Position numbers and translations under genes: made by a program. The notes beneath the pieces are model-generated. The model was given only the letters and a program-made list of their open reading frames with translations. It had not been told where the DNA came from and ran no database searches. Positions 15,862 through 43,050 of a DNA stretch of 59,589 nt are shown one piece after another. Origin of the DNA: Henriciella sp. (lineage in GTDB: Bacteria > Pseudomonadota > Alphaproteobacteria > Caulobacterales > Hyphomonadaceae); the NCBI GenBank assembly GCA_029238175.1, contig JAQWGO010000180.1:1-59589 (forward strand), in the 5' to 3' direction. Positions within the stretch are counted from its first letter, which is position 1. The number at the start of each line of letters is the position of its first letter.

Positions 15862-16134
15862 TTAGTCGGATAGACCGGGAATAGCCTCAACCTCTGTTAG
15901 GAGGTCGGTCAGTGAATCCGCCTTGGCGACTTCTGTATCCTTATCATCATAAAGGACGAAGCCTGAATTTGACTTGCGTAACGGAAAGCGGCGCCAGTGC
16001 GCCTTTGTGCGATACAGTACGATCTCTTCAGGTTCTTCGCCGGTGGCTGACCAGCCGGTCCAAACGTGGTCGGCGGGGACAGAGCGCCAAAGGCGGTCTA
16101 TGGCTTCGAGATCGGCGGCGGAGAATTGATTCAT
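15862..16134 (-). CDS. Small hypothetical protein, start codon overlapping the DMT gene
   Basis: An unrecognised soluble protein of 90 residues beginning MNQFSAADLEAIDRLW and ending EAIPGLSD. It contains a tryptophan-rich middle (WTGWSATGEEPEEIVLYRTKAHWRRFP) and is acidic overall. The start at 16134 is chosen because upstream sequence is the N-terminus of the divergent transporter; the two ATGs share two bases in CATG. No strong Shine-Dalgarno precedes it, so the real start could be internal. It is convergent with the SDR gene by 5 bp. Reading frame and composition support a real gene, but no function is offered. Confidence 0.55.
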   Translation of the reverse strand: MNQFSAADLEAIDRLWRSVPADHVWTGWSATGEEPEEIVLYRTKAHWRRFPLRKSNSGFVLYDDKDTEVAKADSLTDLLTEVEAIPGLSD

Positions 16135-32126: not shown

Positions 32127-32798
32127 CTACTGACCAAGTAGGCGCTGAACGACGCCCATCATGCCTGTAAAGCGTAATCCGCCTTCGTGAACTGCTAGCG
32201 CGAAGCATACGCCGTCCATATCACCGGTTGGCTGGTGTGTGTCTTCTGGGCCTTTGACGCTAACATCGCCGGGGCCAAAGCTGCCTGTCTCGTCGGTAAA
32301 TCCACCCGACACGACGAGCGTGAACTCACTGCCATTATGGCTGTGCTTGGGGACGGTTCTACCCGGTTCAATCCGGTAAAGTTCAACTTCGGCTTCACTT
32401 GAAACATCGAGCTTGAGACGGCGAACACCGGGCGTTAGGTTCTTCCAACCCGAAGAACCACAGGCTTCCAGCGCTTCTTCGCGGAGGGGTTCTGGCAGAG
32501 CCAGCAATTCTTCCAGCGCTTCGCCCGCTAAGTTTACAGCTTTGCGCGTCGGTTTTTCGTTAGCTTCCCATGCATCAATCATCGCCAAAGCTTTATCCGC
32601 TGCGCCGGCGCTTAAGTCAGAGGCAGCTTCTGTATCGAAGAAAACTCCATCGATTGTTTCAGCGCGGGCAATCGCGCGTGTGACGTCAGGGCGCAATGTC
32701 GCCTGCGTTTCAACCATAAGGGCAAATGCAGGATCAAGGCAGCCAGCAGCATAAGCGCTGTAAACTTCGCCAAAGTCTGAAATTGTAGTTTTGCCCAT
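32127..32798 (-). CDS. chrR: ChrR-family anti-sigma factor, zinc-site-deficient N-terminus
   Basis: A 223-residue anti-sigma factor that would hold the adjacent RpoE-like sigma until singlet oxygen or another stress releases it. The C-terminal cupin keeps its zinc ligands HSHNGSE plus the later His in THQP. The N-terminal anti-sigma domain begins MGKTTISDFGEVYSAYAAGCLDPA; the His and Cys of the canonical zinc site (His6, His31, Cys35, Cys38 in Rhodobacter ChrR) are not there (position 31 is Thr, 35 Leu, 38 Asp). ATG 32798 is chosen over a TTG at 32870. It follows rpoE on the same strand after 98 bp. Confidence 0.85.
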   Translation of the reverse strand: MGKTTISDFGEVYSAYAAGCLDPAFALMVETQATLRPDVTRAIARAETIDGVFFDTEAASDLSAGAADKALAMIDAWEANEKPTRKAVNLAGEALEELLALPEPLREEALEACGSSGWKNLTPGVRRLKLDVSSEAEVELYRIEPGRTVPKHSHNGSEFTLVVSGGFTDETGSFGPGDVSVKGPEDTHQPTGDMDGVCFALAVHEGGLRFTGMMGVVQRLLGQ

Positions 32799-32896
32799 GT
32801 GGTCGGATACTCTGCTAATTTTTGTTGTTATATTCCGCGATATTATCCGATTGGGCTTACCGTCAAGCAAATGCAGCTCCCGATTGCAGTCATGGT

Positions 32897-33556
32897 TTAG
32901 TTTTCGCGTTCCAAATTTCCGCGCAAACGCTGGAAAGCGAGGCGGATTCGAGATTTTACAGTGCCGAGCGGCAAGCCGTAAGTTTTGGCGATTTCTGAAT
33001 GGGAGAGACCTTCGTAGAACACCGCTTTTAAAAGAACGAGCTGGTCTTCTGGTAGCGTCTCGATTTCCCGGCGCACAATTGTTTCCATCTGGAGACGGTT
33101 CACTGTGATATCTGGTTGTTCAGACTCGGCTGGTTTCAGCATAGGGTCTTCAGCATCAAGGTCAGGCTTATTTATACGGCGATGATTATCGATCCGCCGG
33201 TTGCGAGCGATCCGGAATATCCATGTTGAAACTGATGCCTGGTTGCGGTCATATTGTTCAGCTTTGCGCCAAACATTCAGCATCACTTCCTGCATAATCT
33301 CTTCGGCAGAGCTTGGGTCGCTGCCGAGGCGCATAAGATAACTTTTTAGCCGCGGCGCGAAGTGTTCAAAAATCTCAGAAAATGCAGCACGCGACTTTAC
33401 CGCCGCGATTTGTTCAACGCAGTCGGCTAGTCTGGTCCGTTCAATCGGACCGTTACCTGTTGTTACTACTGACAATAATTCATCCCGCGAAGCCTCACAC
33501 TCGTATAAAGCGCTTTCTGCTATAGAATTGCAACCGCTGCGAGATAATAAACTCAT
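32897..33556 (-). CDS. rpoE: ECF sigma factor, RpoE/ChrR type
   Basis: A 219-residue extracytoplasmic-function sigma-70 factor. Region 2 contains FAPRLKSYLMRLGSDPSSAEEIMQEVMLNVWRK and STWIFRIARNRRID, and region 4 LPEDQLVLLKAVFYEGLSHSEIAKTYGLPLGTVKSRIRLAF. An N-terminal extension of about 40 residues is present; a shorter start is possible. With chrR next to it the pair resembles ECF11, which responds to singlet oxygen in Rhodobacter. The divergent IalB-like gene is 103 bp away, and no clear auto-regulated TGATC-type promoter was seen in that gap. Confidence 0.92.
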   Translation of the reverse strand: MSLLSRSGCNSIAESALYECEASRDELLSVVTTGNGPIERTRLADCVEQIAAVKSRAAFSEIFEHFAPRLKSYLMRLGSDPSSAEEIMQEVMLNVWRKAEQYDRNQASVSTWIFRIARNRRIDNHRRINKPDLDAEDPMLKPAESEQPDITVNRLQMETIVRREIETLPEDQLVLLKAVFYEGLSHSEIAKTYGLPLGTVKSRIRLAFQRLRGNLEREN

Positions 33557-33659
33557 AATCGCCCGTTAATGTTGTGTGTCTTATTTAGGCCTTATGATTT
33601 GGTAGAGATATTGGTGTGGCTTGTCCATATATTCTATTCTATATGAAAGATAATATATA

Positions 33660-34157
33660 ATGCGTGGTTTTGCTCTTCTCGGCACAATGTTGGTTCTAGC
33701 AATTGGTATGACAGCTCAGGCGTCTCCCTCTGTCGTTAATCAGTATAAGGACTGGGTTGTATTTACTGAGGATAGCGGTGGGGAAAAGCTTTGCTACGCC
33801 GCAACGAAAGCCACGGACATGGCACCGAAGTCTGCTGATCACGGCGATGTTTGGTTTTACGTTTCAAACTGGCAATCGGGTAAGGCCCGCAATCAACCAA
33901 GTCTAAAGGTCGGCTATGATTTGCGCGGCGACCTGCCGGGTAAGGCAAAGATCGGGCGCAGTGATTGGTCTCTTTTCGGTGTCGGCCGTGAAGCCTTCGC
34001 GCAGGACGGCGACGATACCGCCCTTGTCAGGCAGTTAAAGCGCGGTAACGAGCTACGCGTCGAGGCAACCTCAAATCGGAATACTCGTGTTACCTACCAT
34101 TTTTCTTTATCAGGCTCGAGCTCCGCGATTGAGCGTGCCGCGTCAGTTTGCAGATAG
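33660..34157 (+). CDS. IalB-like (invasion-associated locus B) secreted protein
   Basis: A 165-residue exported protein with a signal peptide ending near AQAS (residue ~22). EKLCYAATKATDMAPKSA, DVWFYVSNW, VGYDLRG and a terminal VCR Cys match the alphaproteobacterial IalB-like family, usually in the periplasm and disulfide linked between the two Cys. The start lies in AT-rich DNA with no clear Shine-Dalgarno. It is 81 bp upstream of the first DUF11 gene on the same strand and might share its transcript, but a terminator is not seen in either gap. Confidence 0.72.
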   Translation: MRGFALLGTMLVLAIGMTAQASPSVVNQYKDWVVFTEDSGGEKLCYAATKATDMAPKSADHGDVWFYVSNWQSGKARNQPSLKVGYDLRGDLPGKAKIGRSDWSLFGVGREAFAQDGDDTALVRQLKRGNELRVEATSNRNTRVTYHFSLSGSSSAIERAASVCR

Positions 34158-34238: not shown

Positions 34239-34715
34239 ATGCTACGTGGATCACTATTCGCCCTTTCGTTATTAACGGCGTTCATTGCGCCAGCCTATGC
34301 TACTGGTTTGCAGGCCGAGCAGATTGTCGAAGTTGCGACTGTCTCAGTTGATGAAAATGGCCAAGAGCAGGTTACTTACATGCTCGCTGAAGAAGTCGCC
34401 CCAGGCGATCAAGTGCGTTACACGATTAACTAAACGAATGCCGGTAATGAGAGCGCGAGCAACGTAAAGCTTGATATGCCTGTTCCAGCTGAAGTCGACT
34501 TCATTGAGGGGTCTGCAGATGCCACGTCAGCAGAAATTTCATACTCCGCTGACAATGGCGAGACCTTCGCGTCACGCGGCACCCTAACGGTTACTGAAGC
34601 TGGTGAGCCACAAGCGGCGACTGCAAAAGATATTACGCATGTACGCTGGACCTTCACGGGCGATATTGCGCCAGGTGAAGCGGGCAGCATCAGCTACAGC
34701 GGTGTTTTAAAATAA
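34239..34715 (+). pseudogene. Secreted DUF11-like protein, broken by in-frame TAA
   Basis: The reading frame from ATG 34239 (after GGAG) gives a signal peptide ending near PAYA, then a DUF11-type beta domain. At 34431-34433 a TAA stops translation after GDQVRYTIN; the same frame then continues TNAGNESASNVKLDMPVPAEV and ends at 34715 with ISYSGVLK. TYTN(A/T)G is a DUF11 motif, so the original codon was probably Tyr (TAT or TAC). The complete product would be about 158 residues. It is the first of three damaged exported genes. Sequencing error, true mutation or recoding cannot be told apart here. Confidence 0.75.
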
Positions 34716-34807
34716 GAAAATATGGAAAAGGCAGGGACTTTCGCGGCTTGTTAACCGTGTTCTGTCACTATGCCGACCAAAGAGCTTGAATAATCTGGAG
34801 CCGGGCA

Positions 34808-36072
34808 ATGAGTAAATTGGATATTAGAGGTGCACTGTAACGGCTTGCCGTTGTCGGTTCAGCCGCAGTTTTAACGAGTGGCGCTGCTTATGCTGCGAAC
34901 ACACTTACAGAGGCGGGTACGTCGGTCTCAAACACTTTTGAGTTGAGCTATGAAGTGTCTGACGTCGTACAGCCCGTAATTACCAACAATAGCGTTAGCC
35001 CCCGGTTGGCGCGATCGTACAGGGTACACCGACACTGTTCACGGTTGACCGTAAAGTTGACCTGATCGTCACGGCGACAAATTAAACGCTGAACTCGCCT
35101 CCGGGCGCGACAGCTGTTTTGACGTACACATTGCTGAATGAAGGTAACGATACGCAGGCCTACTCATTCTCAATCGAAGATCTTGATAACGCAGCCGGTA
35201 CGTTCGACGCGACTACGGTGACGATCTCATATCTGTTAGATGCCAATGATGACGGCACACCGGATGATGGCGCCTTCACAACAATTGCTGCGACGGCTGT
35301 TGGAACTGCAGCAGGTTCAGCAAATTTCACACCTGACGTTCCAAAAGGTACGCGGGTTTTTCTTCAAGTTTCAGGGGTAATTGCCGCGTCGGTAGCTGAC
35401 CTAGAAACAGATGCTATTACAATTGTTGCCGAAACGCGTGATCCAACAGCGTGGGCGAATGTTGCGGAAACAGGCGCTGTTTCTGGCGCAGTTTCTGGCG
35501 CAGTGACAACCGCAGATACCGGCTCAAATGATATCGAGCTTGCCGCCCAGAACGTTCTGGCCGACGGAACAGGTGTTGCTGCCGCGGAAGCGGCGGGTGA
35601 TGGCGACGGACTCTACGCCGCTACGGGTATAATCGAGGTCGAATCGCCAGACTTGAGCGCCACGAAGACTGTGACAGCCATTAAAGAGCCGGGCATCGCT
35701 GATCCGTTTGTTGCACTGACTGACTGTGCAACCGCGACGGCTGTTCCTGATGCGAAGGCCATACCGGGTTCTTGCGTTGAATACGTCATTCAGGTTGAAA
35801 ACACGGGGTCTGCTCCGGCTGATACGCTGGTCATCGACGATATCTTGCCGGCTGAAGTCACATTCATCTCTGCAGAGTTTTCAGACGCTGCACCAGGCAC
35901 TGGCTTTGATGATGATCCAGATGTTGCCGGTGCTGGCCCAATTCTATCAGCACCAACGACGCCAGCGGCCAGCGATTGCAATGGCACAACGACTTGTGTG
36001 ATCCAGCTATCTGATGCGCTGCTACCAGCGGGTCGTACCGGAACGATCACAATTCGAGCCCTAGTTAAGTAA
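34808..36072 (+). pseudogene. Secreted DUF11-repeat protein with two TAA stops and a frameshift
   Basis: From ATG 34808 the frame reads MSKLDIRGAL, then TAA (34838-34840), then RLAVVGSAAVLTSGAAYA, an obvious signal peptide. A second lesion lies near 34999-35003: five C where six would keep the frame (SVSPPVGAIVQGTPT); the C-terminal part is in the next frame. A third stop is TAA at 35083-35085 within VTATN-TLNSPPGATAVLTY. The rest is open to 36072 and has DUF11-type domains ending VIQVENTGSAPADTLVIDDILP and TGTITIRALVK. A restored protein would have about 420 residues, secreted, with two or three Ig-like repeats. Confidence 0.75.
35479..35502 (+). repeat. Short tandem repeat in the DUF11 gene
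   Basis: The 12-bp unit GTTTCTGGCGCA occurs twice in a row and encodes (V)SGA repeated, giving VSGAVSGAV. It may mediate slippage. Confidence 0.6.
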
Positions 36073-36097
36073 GCTCGTACTAGACCGAACTTAGAAA

Positions 36098-36128
36098 GCC
36101 CTGGGCAATTTGCCCAGGGCTTTTTTTT
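36098..36128 (+). terminator. Strong Rho-independent terminator after the DUF11 genes
   Basis: GCCCTGGGCA (36098-36107) pairs perfectly with TGCCCAGGGC (36111-36120), loop ATT, followed by eight T. It separates the two DUF11 genes from the large barrel gene. Confidence 0.97.
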
Positions 36129-36185
36129 GGCTGGATACTTAAGCTGCTGAAATATCAGTGATTTACTGCAATTGCTGGCGAAATA

Positions 36186-36199
36186 GATCAAATTTGATC
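36186..36199. promoter_or_regulatory. Perfect 14-bp palindrome upstream of the large barrel gene
   Basis: GATCAAATTTGATC is fully symmetric and lies 95 bp before the ATG at 36294 in an AT-rich gap; it looks like a regulator site. A second inverted repeat, GGGCAG (36250-36255) and CTGCCC (36265-36270), lies in the expected leader. Confidence 0.45.
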
Positions 36200-36293
36200 G
36201 ATTAACCAAGCCTGATCCTAACCATGTTTTCCTAAACCTATCGCCTAGAGGGCAGGCATAAGATCTGCCCCGTGATGGTGTGGAGTAAAGGCG

Positions 36294-39200
36294 ATGGTTT
36301 CCGTTTGGAAGCACATCCTAGGGGTTATTGTAACGCTTGCTTTGGCAAGTGTGCTCGCGCTCGTACATGCTCCGGCAGCGTATGCCGATCTTGGCGACCG
36401 CGTCACGAATATCGCAACGATCTCACAAGATGCCAATTCTGGGCGTTTGGTGTTTCAGACAAATGAAGCTTCATTTATCATTGAAGCGCGTCAAACCCCG
36501 TCAGAGATCGAATTCTTTAGAGTTGTAGCGGGCGCACCTGACGCAATTTCTATTACTTTGAACGGATCTGATTATAGCCCAAGCGGTGATCCAGCAGACG
36601 CATTCTTGCCTATAGAGGGCGCCTCAGGACCAAGCGGCGTTGCGCTCAATACACCAAGCACTGTTCCTCTCGTGCCAACCTCGACGTATTTATCAGGCGA
36701 GATAATGGTCGTGCGGGTGATCGACACGGGTCAGAATGGCGATCCAAATGTTATTGAGACCGTTTTGATTACGGTGCGCGCCGATAATGGCGATCGAATT
36801 ACACTTCGATTGTACGAGGACGGGCCCAACACGGGTCAATTCTACGCATTTTTCCCAAGTTCTGCGGCTGATACGCCGCAAAATGATATTACAATTACTG
36901 CACCTCAGGACACGGTTCTGACAGCGACCTATATTGACGCGTTCGATGCAACCGAAGTGTCAGTGGACACGGCATTCATCAGCCCGTTTGGCCGGGTATT
37001 TGATAGTTTCACAGGTGAGTTATTAGACGGGGTAGCTGTAACACTTATTGATGTTTCAACAGGTTTGCCCGCAACCGTTTTGGGTGTTGATGGCGCTGGT
37101 GATTTCCCGGCGCGCGTGCTTACGGGTGTAGATGTCACTGATAGTGCGGGTATCACTTATACTAGCGAACCTGGGGCCTTTTTCTATCCGATTTTGGCAC
37201 CGGGAACGTATAGATTGCAAGTTGATGCGCCAGAGGGATATTTGTATCCTTCGGTACGTGTCGCTGCAGATTTTGACGGGTTGCAGAATGCACCCTTCAC
37301 GATCGATGATGACGCGTCTTACAGCCAAGACTTTACGATAGCGGCCTCTGGTCCACTGAATCTAGACGTTCCGCTTGACCCAAATGGCGATCTCGTCGTC
37401 CGCAAAGAGGCGTCTGAGCCTGCTGCTTCTGTAGGCGATTTTGTTGGCTACACGGTGACGCTTGAAAACGAAGGCAATGTGCCAGCACCATTCACATTGC
37501 GGGATAATCTACCGCGTGGCTTGCGTTATGTTACCGGTTCAGTCCGTCTGAACGGGGCGGTTGTTGGCGAGCCGCAAATCTTAGCGGATGGCGAGACACT
37601 TCTATTCTCCGGTGGATTGGTTTTGGCAGGTGAGCGCGCGCGCCTAACGTACCTGACATCTGTTGGTCCGGGTGCGCAAACGGGCGAAGCTGTAAACCGA
37701 GCTGTAGCGATCAACAGCAGTGGCGAAGAGCTTTCAAATGTAGCTGAAGCTGCTGTTATTATTGAGGAAGACCTGTTTAGTTCACGCCTCACCATTGTTG
37801 GCCGCGTGGCCGATGCAGCGTGTACACCCGATGATAATTGGGCGCGCGAATTGTCAGATGGCAAGGGTATTGCGAACGTTAGAATTTACATGGAAACGGG
37901 CCGCTATGTTGTGACTGATGAGAACGGTCTTTTCCATTTTGAAGGCATTGAGCCAGGCACACACGTTGTTCAGCTGGATGAAGCGACATTGCCGAAAGGC
38001 TATGATCCGGTCGTCTGTGAAGAAAATTCTCGCTATGCAGGTAGCGCCATTTCGAAGTTTGTGGACGCGCAAGGCGGCACACTTTGGCGTGCTAATTTCT
38101 ATCTGGAGCGCAATGGCGAGGCCTTGGATGTTGTGGATAAAGCCGGTGCCATGCTTCGCGATGCGGACAAGTATGATTCAGCTTGGCTCGACGGCTTGAC
38201 AAAAGTCTATCCGCGTTGGGCTTATCCGGCGCTGGGCCAGACGCCGAATGCGCGGTCGCTCGATCTGGGCTTTGTGCATGGGCCGAACGATCAGGTGGAG
38301 CTGCGCCTGAACGAGAAATCTGTGTCAGGGCTGAATTTTGCAGGCCGTCAGGTTTCTAAGAACCGCACCCTAGCGATTTCGCGTTGGACAGGCGTCGATA
38401 TTCAGCGCGGTGAAAACCGGTTTGAAGCCGTCATCTACAATCAAGATGGTCAGGTTATAGAGCGCCAGGGGCGTACAGTTTGGTTCGTAGACGAGGTTAA
38501 CAGCGCCCGATTGGTTGATGATCGCTCTGTTACGGTCGCCGACGGCCGAACAAAGCCAGTTATTGCGATCCGTCTTGAAGATGGATCAGGCCATGCGGTT
38601 CACGAAGGGCGTTTGGCAGAAATCAATGTGTCTGAGCCTTATCGCTTGGCGCAAGAGGCCGAACAAGAATTTGAAGCGCCAGTCTCAGCCGCCTTCAATG
38701 CTGCGACAGGCGTTTCTGTTGGTGCCGATGGTGTCGCGTTGGTTGAGCTTGAGCCAACACTCAAGTCAGGCCGTGTACGCGTACAAGTTAAGCTAAACGA
38801 TGGCAGTCTCGAAGAGATTGATGTCTGGCTACAACCCGAGAAGCGGGAATGGGTCGTTGTTGGCCTAGCGGAGGCAGAAGGCCTCCTCTCAAATATCGAT
38901 GGCGATGGTTCTGATGACCTAGATGAGGTTTCAGCGGATGGCCGTATCGCCTTCTTTGCAAAAGGCGTCATTCGAGGCGACTGGTTGCTGACGATTGCTG
39001 TCGACACAGCGAAGCGCCGCGGCACAGAGGATGGTGAGCTCTTCGATGAGATCGATCCAAATGCATACTATACGCTCTATGGTGACCGAACTTGGCAGAA
39101 CAACGACGCTGAGAGCCGTTACCCGCTCTATGTAAAATTAGAAAAAGACTCGTTCCAGGCGCTGTTCGGTTATTATGAAACCGATCTAACCGACACTGAT

Positions 39201-41127
39201 CTTGGTCGCTATTCACGTCGCCTGTCCGGCCTGAAAGTTGACTATGAGAGCGAGAATGTATCGATCACAGCTTTTGCGGCTGAGACCAATCAGACCTTTA
39301 TGAAGGATGAGCTTGCGGCGGACGGGACGTCTGGTCCGTACCGTCTGCAATCTGCGCCGATCATCCGTTCATCTGAAACGATTGCTGTGGAAACACGTGA
39401 CAGGTTCCGCCCTGATGAAGTGGTCAATACTCGCACGCTTAGCCGCTATATCGATTACGAGATCGACTATACGACTGGCGAACTTTTCTTCCGCTATCCA
39501 ATCGCTGCCGCAGATCCAGCGCTGAACCCGAATGTGATTGTTGTCGATTATGAAACAGCGTCGGCAGGTGAGCGCGGCATTACTGCTGGCGGGCGTGCAG
39601 CTGCGCGATTTGCCGACGGAAAAGTCGAAACAGGTGTCACGGTTATCCATGAAGAGGATGGTAATTCACAAGGGCTGGATGGGTCTGATCTGATCGCGGC
39701 GGACGTCACGGTCCGTTTAGGCCAGAACGAATTCCGAGCAGAGCTTGCGACGAGTTCGGCTGAAACCGAGCAGGGCAAGCGCAATGGCCAAGCGCTGCTG
39801 CTGGAAGCGGAGCGACGTACTGAAATGCTGAGCGTGACAGGATACTATCGTGAAGAAACAGCAGGCTTCGGGCTTGGCCAGCAATCGTCTCAAACCTCAG
39901 CGATCCGACGTGTCGGCGCGCAGTTAAGCGCTGAGCTGGGCGTAAAAGATGTTGCTGAAGGCTCTGACCGTTCTGTGCGCCGGGTTGAAGCGCAAGCTTA
40001 CCGTGAAGAGAACCTGACGACAGGCGCTCGCCGCGATGTTGCAGACGTATCTTTGCGCCAAGATAGTCAAACACTTGGTGGAAGTGTGGGATTGAGAGCG
40101 GTTAGTGAAGATTTTGAAGCCGTTGCAGCGCCAAGACAATCTGTGTTGTTAACGGGAAGCGCCAGAAAGACTTTCGTGGATCAGGGCCTAACCTTGACCG
40201 CCACGCACGAAGAACCTGTCTACACAGGCGGTTCGAACGATGATGAGGCAACCTTGTTCCCGGGCCGTACCATTGTGGGCCTTGATAAGACACTCGGGCG
40301 TCAGGCGACGCTGAACCTGCGCCATGAGGTGACGAACGGGGCGAACGCATCGGGTGAAAATACAGTTGCAGGCATCAGCTGGCAGCCGCGTAATGGCACA
40401 CAGGTACGTGCAGCTGCGGATATGATCACGAATGATAGCGGTCGCCGTATCGGCGCAACGGTCGGTGTTGATCAAATCTGGCAGGTGAATGAAGCTTGGA
40501 CGGTGGGCGGCGGACTTGCGCGCCGCGCGAATGTTGATGGCGGCGACCAACCGCTAGACGTTGCGCCAGATGCAGCTGTCAGCCCGCTAGAGGATGGCGT
40601 GCGAAGTGCGCTGACAAATTCAGAAAGCTATACGTCTGGATACCTTGGTGCTGCCTATCAAGTGGATAATACTGCGGTTTCAGCGCGTGCTGAGATGCGT
40701 GATAGTGCAACGGGTGAAGGCCTTGTTGCAACACTGGGCGGTGCCCGCGAAGTGACTGAAACGCTCTCATTTTCTGCGGCGGCGCGCTATCAAGACGAAC
40801 AGCTTGATGAGGCTGCTGACAGTAAAAAACTGGATGTACGTATTGGTGCAGCTTGGCGCCCACGCGGTGAAGGCTTGATCCTTCTGAACCGTTTTGACGT
40901 CAGGCGATGCAAGCGGCACGGACAAATGGTCATTTGGTCCTAGCATTGGTTATACACCGAAAGAGAATGTCTGGGTCAGTGTCGGCTGGAACGTTTCAGG
41001 CTTTGAAGATGAAGACTTTGAGGCGGCGCGTTACACACAACAAGGGCCATACATTAAGCTGCGAGCGAAGTTCGACCAAAACACGCTGAAAGGCGTTATC
41101 AAAGGCCTCGGCCTCGGCGCGGAATAG
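36294..41127 (+). pseudogene. Giant DUF11/SdrD/beta-barrel outer membrane protein, frame broken near C-terminus
   Basis: Signal peptide ends near APAAYA (residue 30). Residues 30-360 have immunoglobulin-like strands; 365-480 is a DUF11 domain (DLVVRKEASEPAASVGD); 495-602 is an SdrD/carboxypeptidase-regulatory-like fold with TDENGLFHFEGIEPGTHVV; 660-780 is Ig-like; from 859 the pattern of alternating residues and short loops fits an outer-membrane beta barrel. The main frame stops at 40943 after LLNRFDV. The other frame from there (TSGDASGTDKWSFGPSIGY) reads through to 41127 with a barrel-closing end, GPYIKLRAKFDQNTL. The two parts meet near 40897-40905. In recalled relatives about 80-100 residues lie between these motifs, so a deletion is likely. 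Confidence 0.75.
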
Positions 41128-41168
41128 CCACTCTTGACTTGCGGCGGCATGGGGCGCACCTGCCCTTT

Positions 41169-41828
41169 ATGACCGACGTAAAAATCTGCGGATTAACTGA
41201 TACGAGCATGGTACGCGTGGCGGCGGAAGCCGGCGCTGATTGGGTAGGCTTTGTGCTTTATCCAAAGAGCCCGCGCAATGTCTTGGGTCACGGCGAAGAT
41301 GCTTTAGAAGTGCTGGAAGAATTATCCGGTTTTGCGCAAGAGCTTGGCGTTCTGTCCGTTGTCCTGACTATCGACCCGGATCAAGACTTATTCGAACAAA
41401 TCTTGCATGATGTTGAACCCAACGCCATCCAATTGCACGGTAAAGAGAACCCGCAAACGGTTCAGCGCATGTGGCGTGACTGCACCGGGATTTGTGAATT
41501 ATGGAAAGCAATCGGCGTATCCGGCGCGCAAGATTTGGAAGAGATCGAGCAATGGCGCGTTGATCGACTATTGATCGATGCGAAAGCACCAGAGGGCGCA
41601 AACTTGCCGGGCGGCAATGGCGTATCGATTGATTGGTCTATCCTTGATGGCTTCGAGCCTGAAGTGCCTTGGCTTTTGGCGGGTGGATTGACCCCAGAAA
41701 ACGTCTCTGAAGCGATAAGTGCGACAGGGGCGCACGCTGTGGATGTCTCCTCTGGTGTGGAACGCACACGAGGGGTAAAGGACGAAGAATTGATAAGAGC
41801 GTTCATCGACGCTGCGAAATACGGGTAA
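41169..41828 (+). CDS. trpF: Phosphoribosylanthranilate isomerase
   Basis: A 219-residue TIM-barrel enzyme that isomerises phosphoribosylanthranilate, step 3 of tryptophan synthesis. KICGLT near the start holds the general base Cys, [12 protein letters not shown] and [10 protein letters not shown] the phosphate site, and VDVSSGVER near the C-terminus the last phosphate-binding loop with the general acid Asp earlier in [10 protein letters not shown] 41169 is chosen by the family N-terminus. trpB follows after 10 bp. Confidence 0.96.
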
Positions 41829-41838
41829 AGGTTTCGGT

Positions 41839-43050
41839 ATGAGTATTCAAAATAGCTGGGATCAATGGCCTGATGCGAATGGCCGTTTTGGTGAGTTTGG
41901 CGGGCGTTATGTCGCCGAAACGCTAATGCCGCTTATCCTTGATCTGGACGCTGAATATCGCGCAGCCAAAAAGGACCCGGCTTTTGCCGCGCAGATGGAT
42001 GATCTTTGGGCCCATTATGTGGGACGCCCTAGCCCGCTTTATTTTGCCGAACGCCTGACCGAGCATTTTGGCGGGGCAAAAATCTATCTAAAGCGTGATG
42101 AGCTGAACCATACTGGCGCGCACAAGATCAATAACTGCCTTGGGCAGGTCTTACTGGCGATGCGTATGGGTAAGAAACGGATTATCGCTGAAACGGGCGC
42201 TGGGCAGCACGGTGTCGCAACTGCGACTGTCTGTGCGCGATTTGGCCTGAAATGCGTTGTGTTTATGGGCGAGACCGATGTTGAACGTCAGAAGCCAAAC
42301 GTCTTCCGCATGAAGCTACTTGGTGCAGAAATCGTCCCCGTTTCAAGTGGTACCGGAACACTGAAAGACGCGATGAATGAAGCGTTGCGCGACTGGGTGA
42401 CCAATGTTGACGATACATTCTACTGTATCGGCACAGCGGCAGGTCCAGCGCCTTATCCTGAGATGGTTCGTGATTTTCAAAGCATCATTGGTAAAGAAGC
42501 GCGCGAACAAATTTTAGAGCGCGAAGGCCGTCTGCCTGACGCGATCATGGCCTGCATCGGCGGTGGCTCTAACGCAATTGGCCTCTTCCATCCTTTTATA
42601 GAGGACGAAGGCGTGCGCATGATTGGTGTTGAGGCGTCTGGCCATGGCGTCGAAAGCGGCATGCATGCTGCAGCACTGAATGGTGGTAGGCCTGGCATCT
42701 TGCACGGCAATAAAACTTACCTTCTGCAGGATGATGATGGGCAAATTATCGACGCTCACTCAATTTCAGCTGGTTTGGATTATCCAGGCATTGGACCAGA
42801 GCACAGCTTCCTGCGCGACAGCGGCCGGGCTGAGTATCTGACCTGCACAGACAATGAGGCGCTTGAAGCTTTCCAGCTGTGCACGCGCCTTGAAGGCATC
42901 ATCCCGGCGCTTGAGCCAAGCCATGCGCTAGCGCGTGTGGGTGAAGTGGCTAAAGATCTTGGCAAGGATGGCCTGATGATCCTCAACATGTGTGGCCGCG
43001 GCGATAAGGATGTGTTCAGCGTCGCAGAGGCGCTCGGGGTGGAGATGTGA
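41839..43050 (+). CDS. trpB: Tryptophan synthase beta chain
   Basis: A 403-residue PLP enzyme forming L-Trp from indole and serine. [13 protein letters not shown] contains the PLP lysine, [13 protein letters not shown] is the phosphate loop, and [11 protein letters not shown] binds the cofactor phosphate side chain. The protein pairs with TrpA through an indole tunnel. Unusually trpA is not next: a lipoprotein gene (GTG overlap of 4 bp at 43047) and cutA lie between, but the unit remains tightly packed and co-directional. Confidence 0.97.

Follow-up and report, generated by a model that had tools for sequence, protein, structure and literature searches.

Why should three neighboring genes for exported proteins be broken in a stretch of DNA whose other genes are intact? 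The question is raised by contig JAQWGO010000180.1 of a Henriciella sp. draft genome (Alphaproteobacteria; assembly GCA_029238175.1), a stretch of 59,589 nucleotides analyzed at its full length and called the window here, in which three genes (genes 1, 2, and 3) between positions 34239 and 41127 of the plus strand carry inactivating lesions. These genes are neighbors in several Gram-negative phyla, all three are broken here, and so is a gene of the same kind that is not linked to them. On balance, we favor the view that a conserved operon for an adhesive surface fiber, with donor-strand joints that are perhaps covalent, is present here in disabled form. It is the intact system, rather than its loss in this strain, that makes the locus interesting.

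The lesions are visible in the sequence and its translations. Gene 1 (34239 to 34715) codes for a small exported DUF11 protein and is interrupted by a TAA codon at 34431-34433. Gene 2 (34808 to 36072), which codes for an exported DUF11 subunit, carries a TAA at 34838-34840, a frame switch that sits at a run of five C (34999-35003), and a second TAA at 35083-35085; two of its pieces, aligned to relatives, support the reconstruction of the gene over 34808-36072. The giant exported protein of gene 3 (36294 to 40943) ends in the wrong frame, and its true C terminus is encoded out of frame at 40894 to 41127, after a deletion of about 228 bp. A first-pass annotation had listed the same set, namely, three in-frame TAA stops, one homopolymer frameshift, and one frame-changing junction. 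All of these are confirmed, and the nature of the junction can be refined to a frame-changing deletion of ~228 bp because relatives hold 76 residues at that site (five of the six measured, the sixth having been mis-anchored by the search pattern). In the relative L068, the 8 bases GACATCGG flank the corresponding stretch of gene 3 on both sides, in different frames. It is conceivable that the deletion took place between short direct repeats, as judged from L068 rather than from the window's own ancestor. Searches of the window's own genome with all three genes found no second copy of them.

The trio is conserved and open in relatives of the same genus. Gene 3 has no internal stop in the matched part in 13 of them (G003, G014, and G042 match in two pieces), gene 2 is open over the matched part in 13 (the query being the part after its last lesion), and gene 1 in 12 (the query being its second half). 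A DUF11 match over the Pfam cutoff was found in each of the three genes of the window, gene 1 being read through one TAA, and the DUF11 matches of homologs in distant phyla are often below that cutoff. Scanning the GTDB genome collection with a pattern turned up 204 relatives of gene 3; the best 80 were retained, and all cross-phylum counts rest on these. They include records from Henriciella, Hellea, Litorimonas, Algimonas, Sphingomonas, Gallionella, Methylotenera, Sulfurovum, Desulfobacterales, and Gammaproteobacteria. Genes 1 and 2 were sought around them with profiles built from the same-genus genes, gene 1 with an E value below 1e-10 and anywhere in the locus. Gene 2 is found upstream of gene 3, on the same strand and within 3 kb, at 66 of the 67 loci with enough DNA; at the sole exception (L113), a 404-residue open reading frame (ORF) without a match takes its place. 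Gene 1 is present in 47 of 57 loci, the ten misses being six same-genus loci and four from Hellea or Hellea-like bacteria. Since genes 2, 3, and 1 keep company in most of the testable loci among these 80, from several phyla, the trio is a real system.

Other genes, often adhesin-like, accompany the trio. In several of the more distant groups, a fourth gene (304 to 373 residues) precedes gene 1, with weak DUF11 matches below the Pfam cutoff in the three that were scanned. Genes near the trio carry Ice_binding, NIDO, PA14, H_lectin, LTD, GEVED, CshA_NR2, and Reelin-type domains; the C-terminal DUF11-like part of these adhesin-like genes is mostly below the Pfam cutoff and was recognized from alignments made here. 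Two scanned neighbors gave no Pfam match, and other neighbors are unrelated (OmpA family, apolipoprotein N-acyltransferase, IF-2).

The window's genome also holds a broken gene away from the trio, a candidate adhesin gene on contig C161 (locus L160; 9674-11074, minus strand) with one in-frame TAA. It combines a DUF2341 N terminus with a C-terminal DUF11-like module as in the system, and the same module occurs in genes adjoining the trio in other genera. The G001 counterpart of the broken gene has an open frame of 466 residues, and the two align closely along the whole length. The disabled operon of the window serves as a natural knock-out, connecting an adhesin-like gene at an unlinked site with the trio. 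The first-pass annotation had proposed one functional unit with its own outer membrane barrel, which is upheld by the adjacency of the trio in many phyla and by this unlinked lesion; relatives in which the three genes are never neighbors are not what we encountered. Leaving out the matches that are gene 1 or gene 2, the C-terminal module was detected in 12 of 14 genomes of the genus with the trio (not in G010 and G044) versus none of the 15 without it. The genus count follows one clade plus G008, as judged from trpB, whose identity to that of the window is 89 to 93% in 12 trio relatives, 85 to 88% in the 15 trio-less genomes, and 85% in G008, the only carrier of the trio outside the clade. The trio genomes being one clade plus G008, few independent events are involved, and co-occurrence in the genus is weakened as an independent proof.

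This distribution bears on the idea that genes 1 to 3 are independent surface proteins and neighbors here by chance. Apart from the clade-bound presence, that idea would draw on the position of gene 1, which in 8 of 12 same-genus relatives is found at another place in the genome, a correction to the first-pass picture of one shared locus. However, the adjacency of the trio across phyla, the domain parts that match between the proteins, and the joint absence of all three genes in 15 of 29 genomes (gene 3 untested in one, G043) make independence very improbable.

We consider ordinary recent loss the most likely origin of the lesions, errors being less likely. ORFs from relatives were aligned with the window (spanning 46.7 kb) and with 20 stretches of other contigs from its genome (55.4 kb), a scan that covers genes with a homolog in the fetched stretches of the relatives. 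Twenty rows were flagged, ten of them in genes 1 to 3; the other ten were set aside, being either antisense shadows of longer ORFs or alignments that extend upstream of a start codon, some after detailed examination and the remainder as judged from the ORF list. After this, no internal lesion was left outside genes 1 to 3 in the ~102 kb of comparable gene span. By simple arithmetic, the chance that five lesions spread evenly over ~102 kb all land within 6.9 kb is ~1e-6. The clustering rejects a uniform error rate, in line with the earlier remark that the other genes of the window are intact, and leaves local error as the rival. One ambiguous stop, at 16127-16129 (within 16100-16133), immediately precedes the likely start of its gene; relatives read through it with similar letters.

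According to this rival, sequencing or assembly errors accumulated in a fragmented draft (181 contigs, 95% complete) and the operon is intact in the organism. The absence of erosion suits it: changes at conserved sites of gene 3 number 26/638 in the window's genome (G000) versus 36/648 in G012, where the gene is intact, 55/667 in G022, 34/646 in G001, and 30/642 in G003, and the two pieces of gene 1 have no excess either (2/18 and 0/22). The lack of excess in gene 3 fits a very recent loss of the system in this strain and also sequencing error. Nevertheless, the 3' part of gene 2 is more changed at conserved sites (12/124) than that of G012 (5/117), although less than that of G022 (21/133). 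Together with the lesion on another contig in a gene of the same system and the lack of any further one in the scanned span, this makes local error improbable. Another way to keep the proteins would be to read through the TAA codons by recoding, and all four in-frame stops (three in the window and one on C161) are indeed TAA. However, the residues at the four sites differ among relatives, with no single one common to them, and the frame switch and the deletion are also present, so we regard recoding as scarcely credible.

Recent loss thus being preferred, the proteins themselves suggest what was lost. A C-terminal strand pattern, defined after examples had been seen, ends 45 of 49 gene 1 proteins, 43 of 55 gene 2 proteins, and 10 of 16 proteins encoded directly downstream of gene 3, but none of 65 gene 3 proteins; among 736 other ORFs it ends 35, including many genes of the cluster that our class definitions did not catch. 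Upstream of the trio in L106, L126, and L131 are large minus-strand ORFs (1,047 to 1,062 residues) whose C termini fit the same signature; they are possibly further large adhesins.

The C-terminal DUF11-like module of gene 2 (35650 to 36069, start approximate) matches DUF11 and ends before the strand that carries the Asn. In alignments, it keeps the Lys in 64/65 and the Asp in 64/65 sequences and lacks the Asn strand in 65/65; the corresponding module of the fourth subunit has Lys and Asp in 13/13 each and no Asn strand in 13/13, and in a hand-picked set of adhesins that includes three genes of the window's genome, Lys and Asp are each present in 24/24. The complete internal DUF11 domain of gene 3 (37389 to 37718) has Lys, Asp, and Asn, all three in 15/15 homologs sampled from 71. 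With this domain as a 131-position profile, the fourth-subunit module reaches the end of the protein (seven or fewer residues left) at position 90 to 96 in 7 of 13 cases; in the other classes, most matches stop earlier in the profile and are less telling.

Strands of the missing type are located at N termini. In gene 2, the translation reads AGTSVSNTFEL at 34913 to 34945, and in gene 3, VTNIATI at 36402 to 36422, where Asn39 is invariant in 10/10 sequences. With a pattern again defined after seeing examples, and with adhesins picked by hand, a V-x-N-x-A-x-V strand within residues 13 to 90 was found in 53/55 gene 2 proteins, 11/13 fourth subunits, and 49/65 gene 3 proteins, versus 0/20 adhesins, 1/49 gene 1 proteins, and 48/778 other ORFs. 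A looser pattern recovers 61/65 gene 2 proteins, and some of the gene 3 misses reflect variant strands or a start codon placed far upstream.

Because the C-terminal module lacks a strand of the type found at the N termini, gene 2 and the fourth subunit could polymerize by donor-strand complementation, each subunit completing the next. With two residues of the isopeptide triad (Lys and Asp) retained in the module and an Asn supplied by the donor strand, a Lys-Asn bond may form and make such a joint covalent, with no need for a sortase; the joint would then be a natural split domain. The same patterns would give the fiber a polarity: adhesins, which have the acceptor and no donor strand, would sit at the tip, and gene 3, which has a donor strand but lacks a C-terminal acceptor, at the base, where its outer membrane barrel would anchor the fiber and perhaps export it. 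The small protein of gene 1, lacking the bond residues, may be a non-covalent shaft or cap subunit. What the sequences show directly is the order of the genes, their domain content, the residue patterns, and the lesions; secretion, polymerization, the covalent bond, polarity, and adhesion are inferred from these. Where the first-pass proposal had a surface layer or appendage, we consider an adhesive fiber likelier than a surface layer.

The barrel is predicted from gene 3 itself, whose internal DUF11 domain is accompanied by CarboxypepD_reg/SpaA/SdrD-type and Ig-like domains, the barrel region following (39111 to 40943, start approximate). In a model of the matching part of L068 (residues 600 to 1687; predicted local distance difference test [pLDDT] 78, predicted template modeling score [pTM] 0.71), sandwich-type domains are followed by a barrel-like region, in which 30 strands, each at least ten residues long, lie within model residues 480 to 1034. 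Foldseek matches of the barrel model are largely outer membrane barrels (SDBC/SlpA, TonB-dependent receptors, LptD, type IX complex, FimD), and the stretch missing from the window's gene 3 corresponds to about four strands of the modeled barrel. For gene 1, the model is one compact beta-sandwich, and a fold search with it gave no PDB match at E ≤ 0.001. A PDB sequence search returned one glycosidase match for the gene 3 profile and mostly short sialidase Asp-box matches for that of gene 1, whose family has a conserved S-x-D-G-G-x-x-F motif that matches these boxes.

Several observations weigh against a donor-strand fiber. The C-terminal signature is found in just the 10 of 16 downstream genes given above, the after-the-fact donor pattern and the hand-picked adhesin set limit those counts, and the barrel matches have low TM-scores, with ApoB100 at the top. 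Complete DUF11 domains contain V-x-N-x-A-x-V strands too, so the one at the N terminus could be a relic of such a domain or could pack against its own chain. Gene 1 proteins have the Asp in 3/50 and the Lys in at most 3/50 of the aligned sequences, and therefore not every joint can be covalent. In the window's genome, two of the three adhesin candidates are open (C146, 492 residues; C161:4036, 506 residues). To these are added the clade-bound co-occurrence in the genus and the uneroded gene 3 already described.

These points leave room for one surface system of another kind, in which the DUF11 proteins are secreted through the barrel or docked on it as separate adhesins or a coat, their N-terminal strands completing their own module. 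The gene 1 model, which includes its own N-terminal strand in a single domain of high confidence (pLDDT 91), and the missing bond residues of gene 1 would agree with it. However, self-completion by a donor strand cannot serve the adhesins, which hold the acceptor module yet lack such a strand in all 20 cases, and we judge this alternative unlikely, though far from negligible. We return to the donor-strand fiber in a wider form, which we put forward tentatively and with more doubt than the reading of the locus itself: a widespread, undescribed Gram-negative fiber in which split DUF11 domains form inter-chain Lys-Asn bonds by themselves, needing no sortase, usher, or dedicated chaperone, with a barrel of ~30 strands as its anchor and exchangeable adhesins at its tip. 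If true, many environmental bacteria would share an adhesion fiber built on a new assembly principle, and the split modules would be new protein-coupling tools. The prediction is a sharp one, as it states which residues on which proteins bond, which protein is the tip, and which is the base.

On the 5' side, the trio of the window is adjoined by genes for a ChrR-type anti-sigma factor and a sigma factor (minus strand) and an IalB-like gene (plus strand), together spanning 32127 to 34157 and conserved in the clade. The sigma factor/anti-sigma pair (32127-33556) keeps its order beside the trio in the clade. On the 3' side, the plus-strand genes at 41139 to 43050, presumably trpF and trpB, also have the same order in the clade. 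Rfam gave no match in the window at gathering scores.

Among known systems, chaperone-usher pili have donor-strand joints, a tip adhesin made of a binding part and an acceptor domain, and an outer membrane barrel at the base, and the proposed fiber would resemble them in all three respects. Membership in this group is not indicated: no Usher match (PF00577) was obtained in the domain scans of gene 3, and neither Usher nor the PapD-type chaperone (PF00345) exceeds the cutoff in 13 of the 14 trio genomes, the exception for both being G008 (G022 has an Usher match below the cutoff). In G008, an usher over the cutoff lies a few kilobases beyond gene 1 of the trio on contig C17 (about 11.6-26.3 kb, part of it in L031), accompanied on that strand by a weak PapD match. 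A sortase-built pilus is rejected as well, since Sortase (PF04203) was found in 0 of the 29 genomes. The proposed joint would be a natural version of the SpyTag/SpyCatcher principle.

No account of the operon came up in a literature search that excluded preprints and the majority of subscription journals; the papers found describe DUF11 filaments, DUF11 isopeptide bonds, and ice-binding proteins with DUF11. DUF11 or CLIPPER domains of fibrillar adhesins form a Lys-Asp-Asn isopeptide bond within one domain (PMC12617251). The DUF11 fold is shared, Lys and Asp are kept in the modules of gene 2, the fourth subunit, and the adhesins, and the full triad is found inside gene 3, but here the module stops short of the Asn strand, and it is other chains that carry such a strand. 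The grappling-hook filament protein GhlA is one giant chain with 49 DUF11 domains (PMC13319060); its DUF11 domains are the beads of a surface filament, as they would be here, although here as separate subunits on a barrel. The archaeal threads of Saci_0406 have beta-sandwich subunits, N-terminal donor strands, and proposed inter-subunit isopeptide bonds (PMC9715654), a likeness in principle to the donor-strand joints and possible isopeptide bonds proposed here. Unlike in our system, the proposed bond of the threads links an Asn to the N-terminal Asp of a second subunit, and the threads are archaeal, with no outer membrane or barrel. The proposed fiber would thus share its donor strands with archaeal threads and with chaperone-usher pili, and its bond chemistry with DUF11 isopeptide domains.

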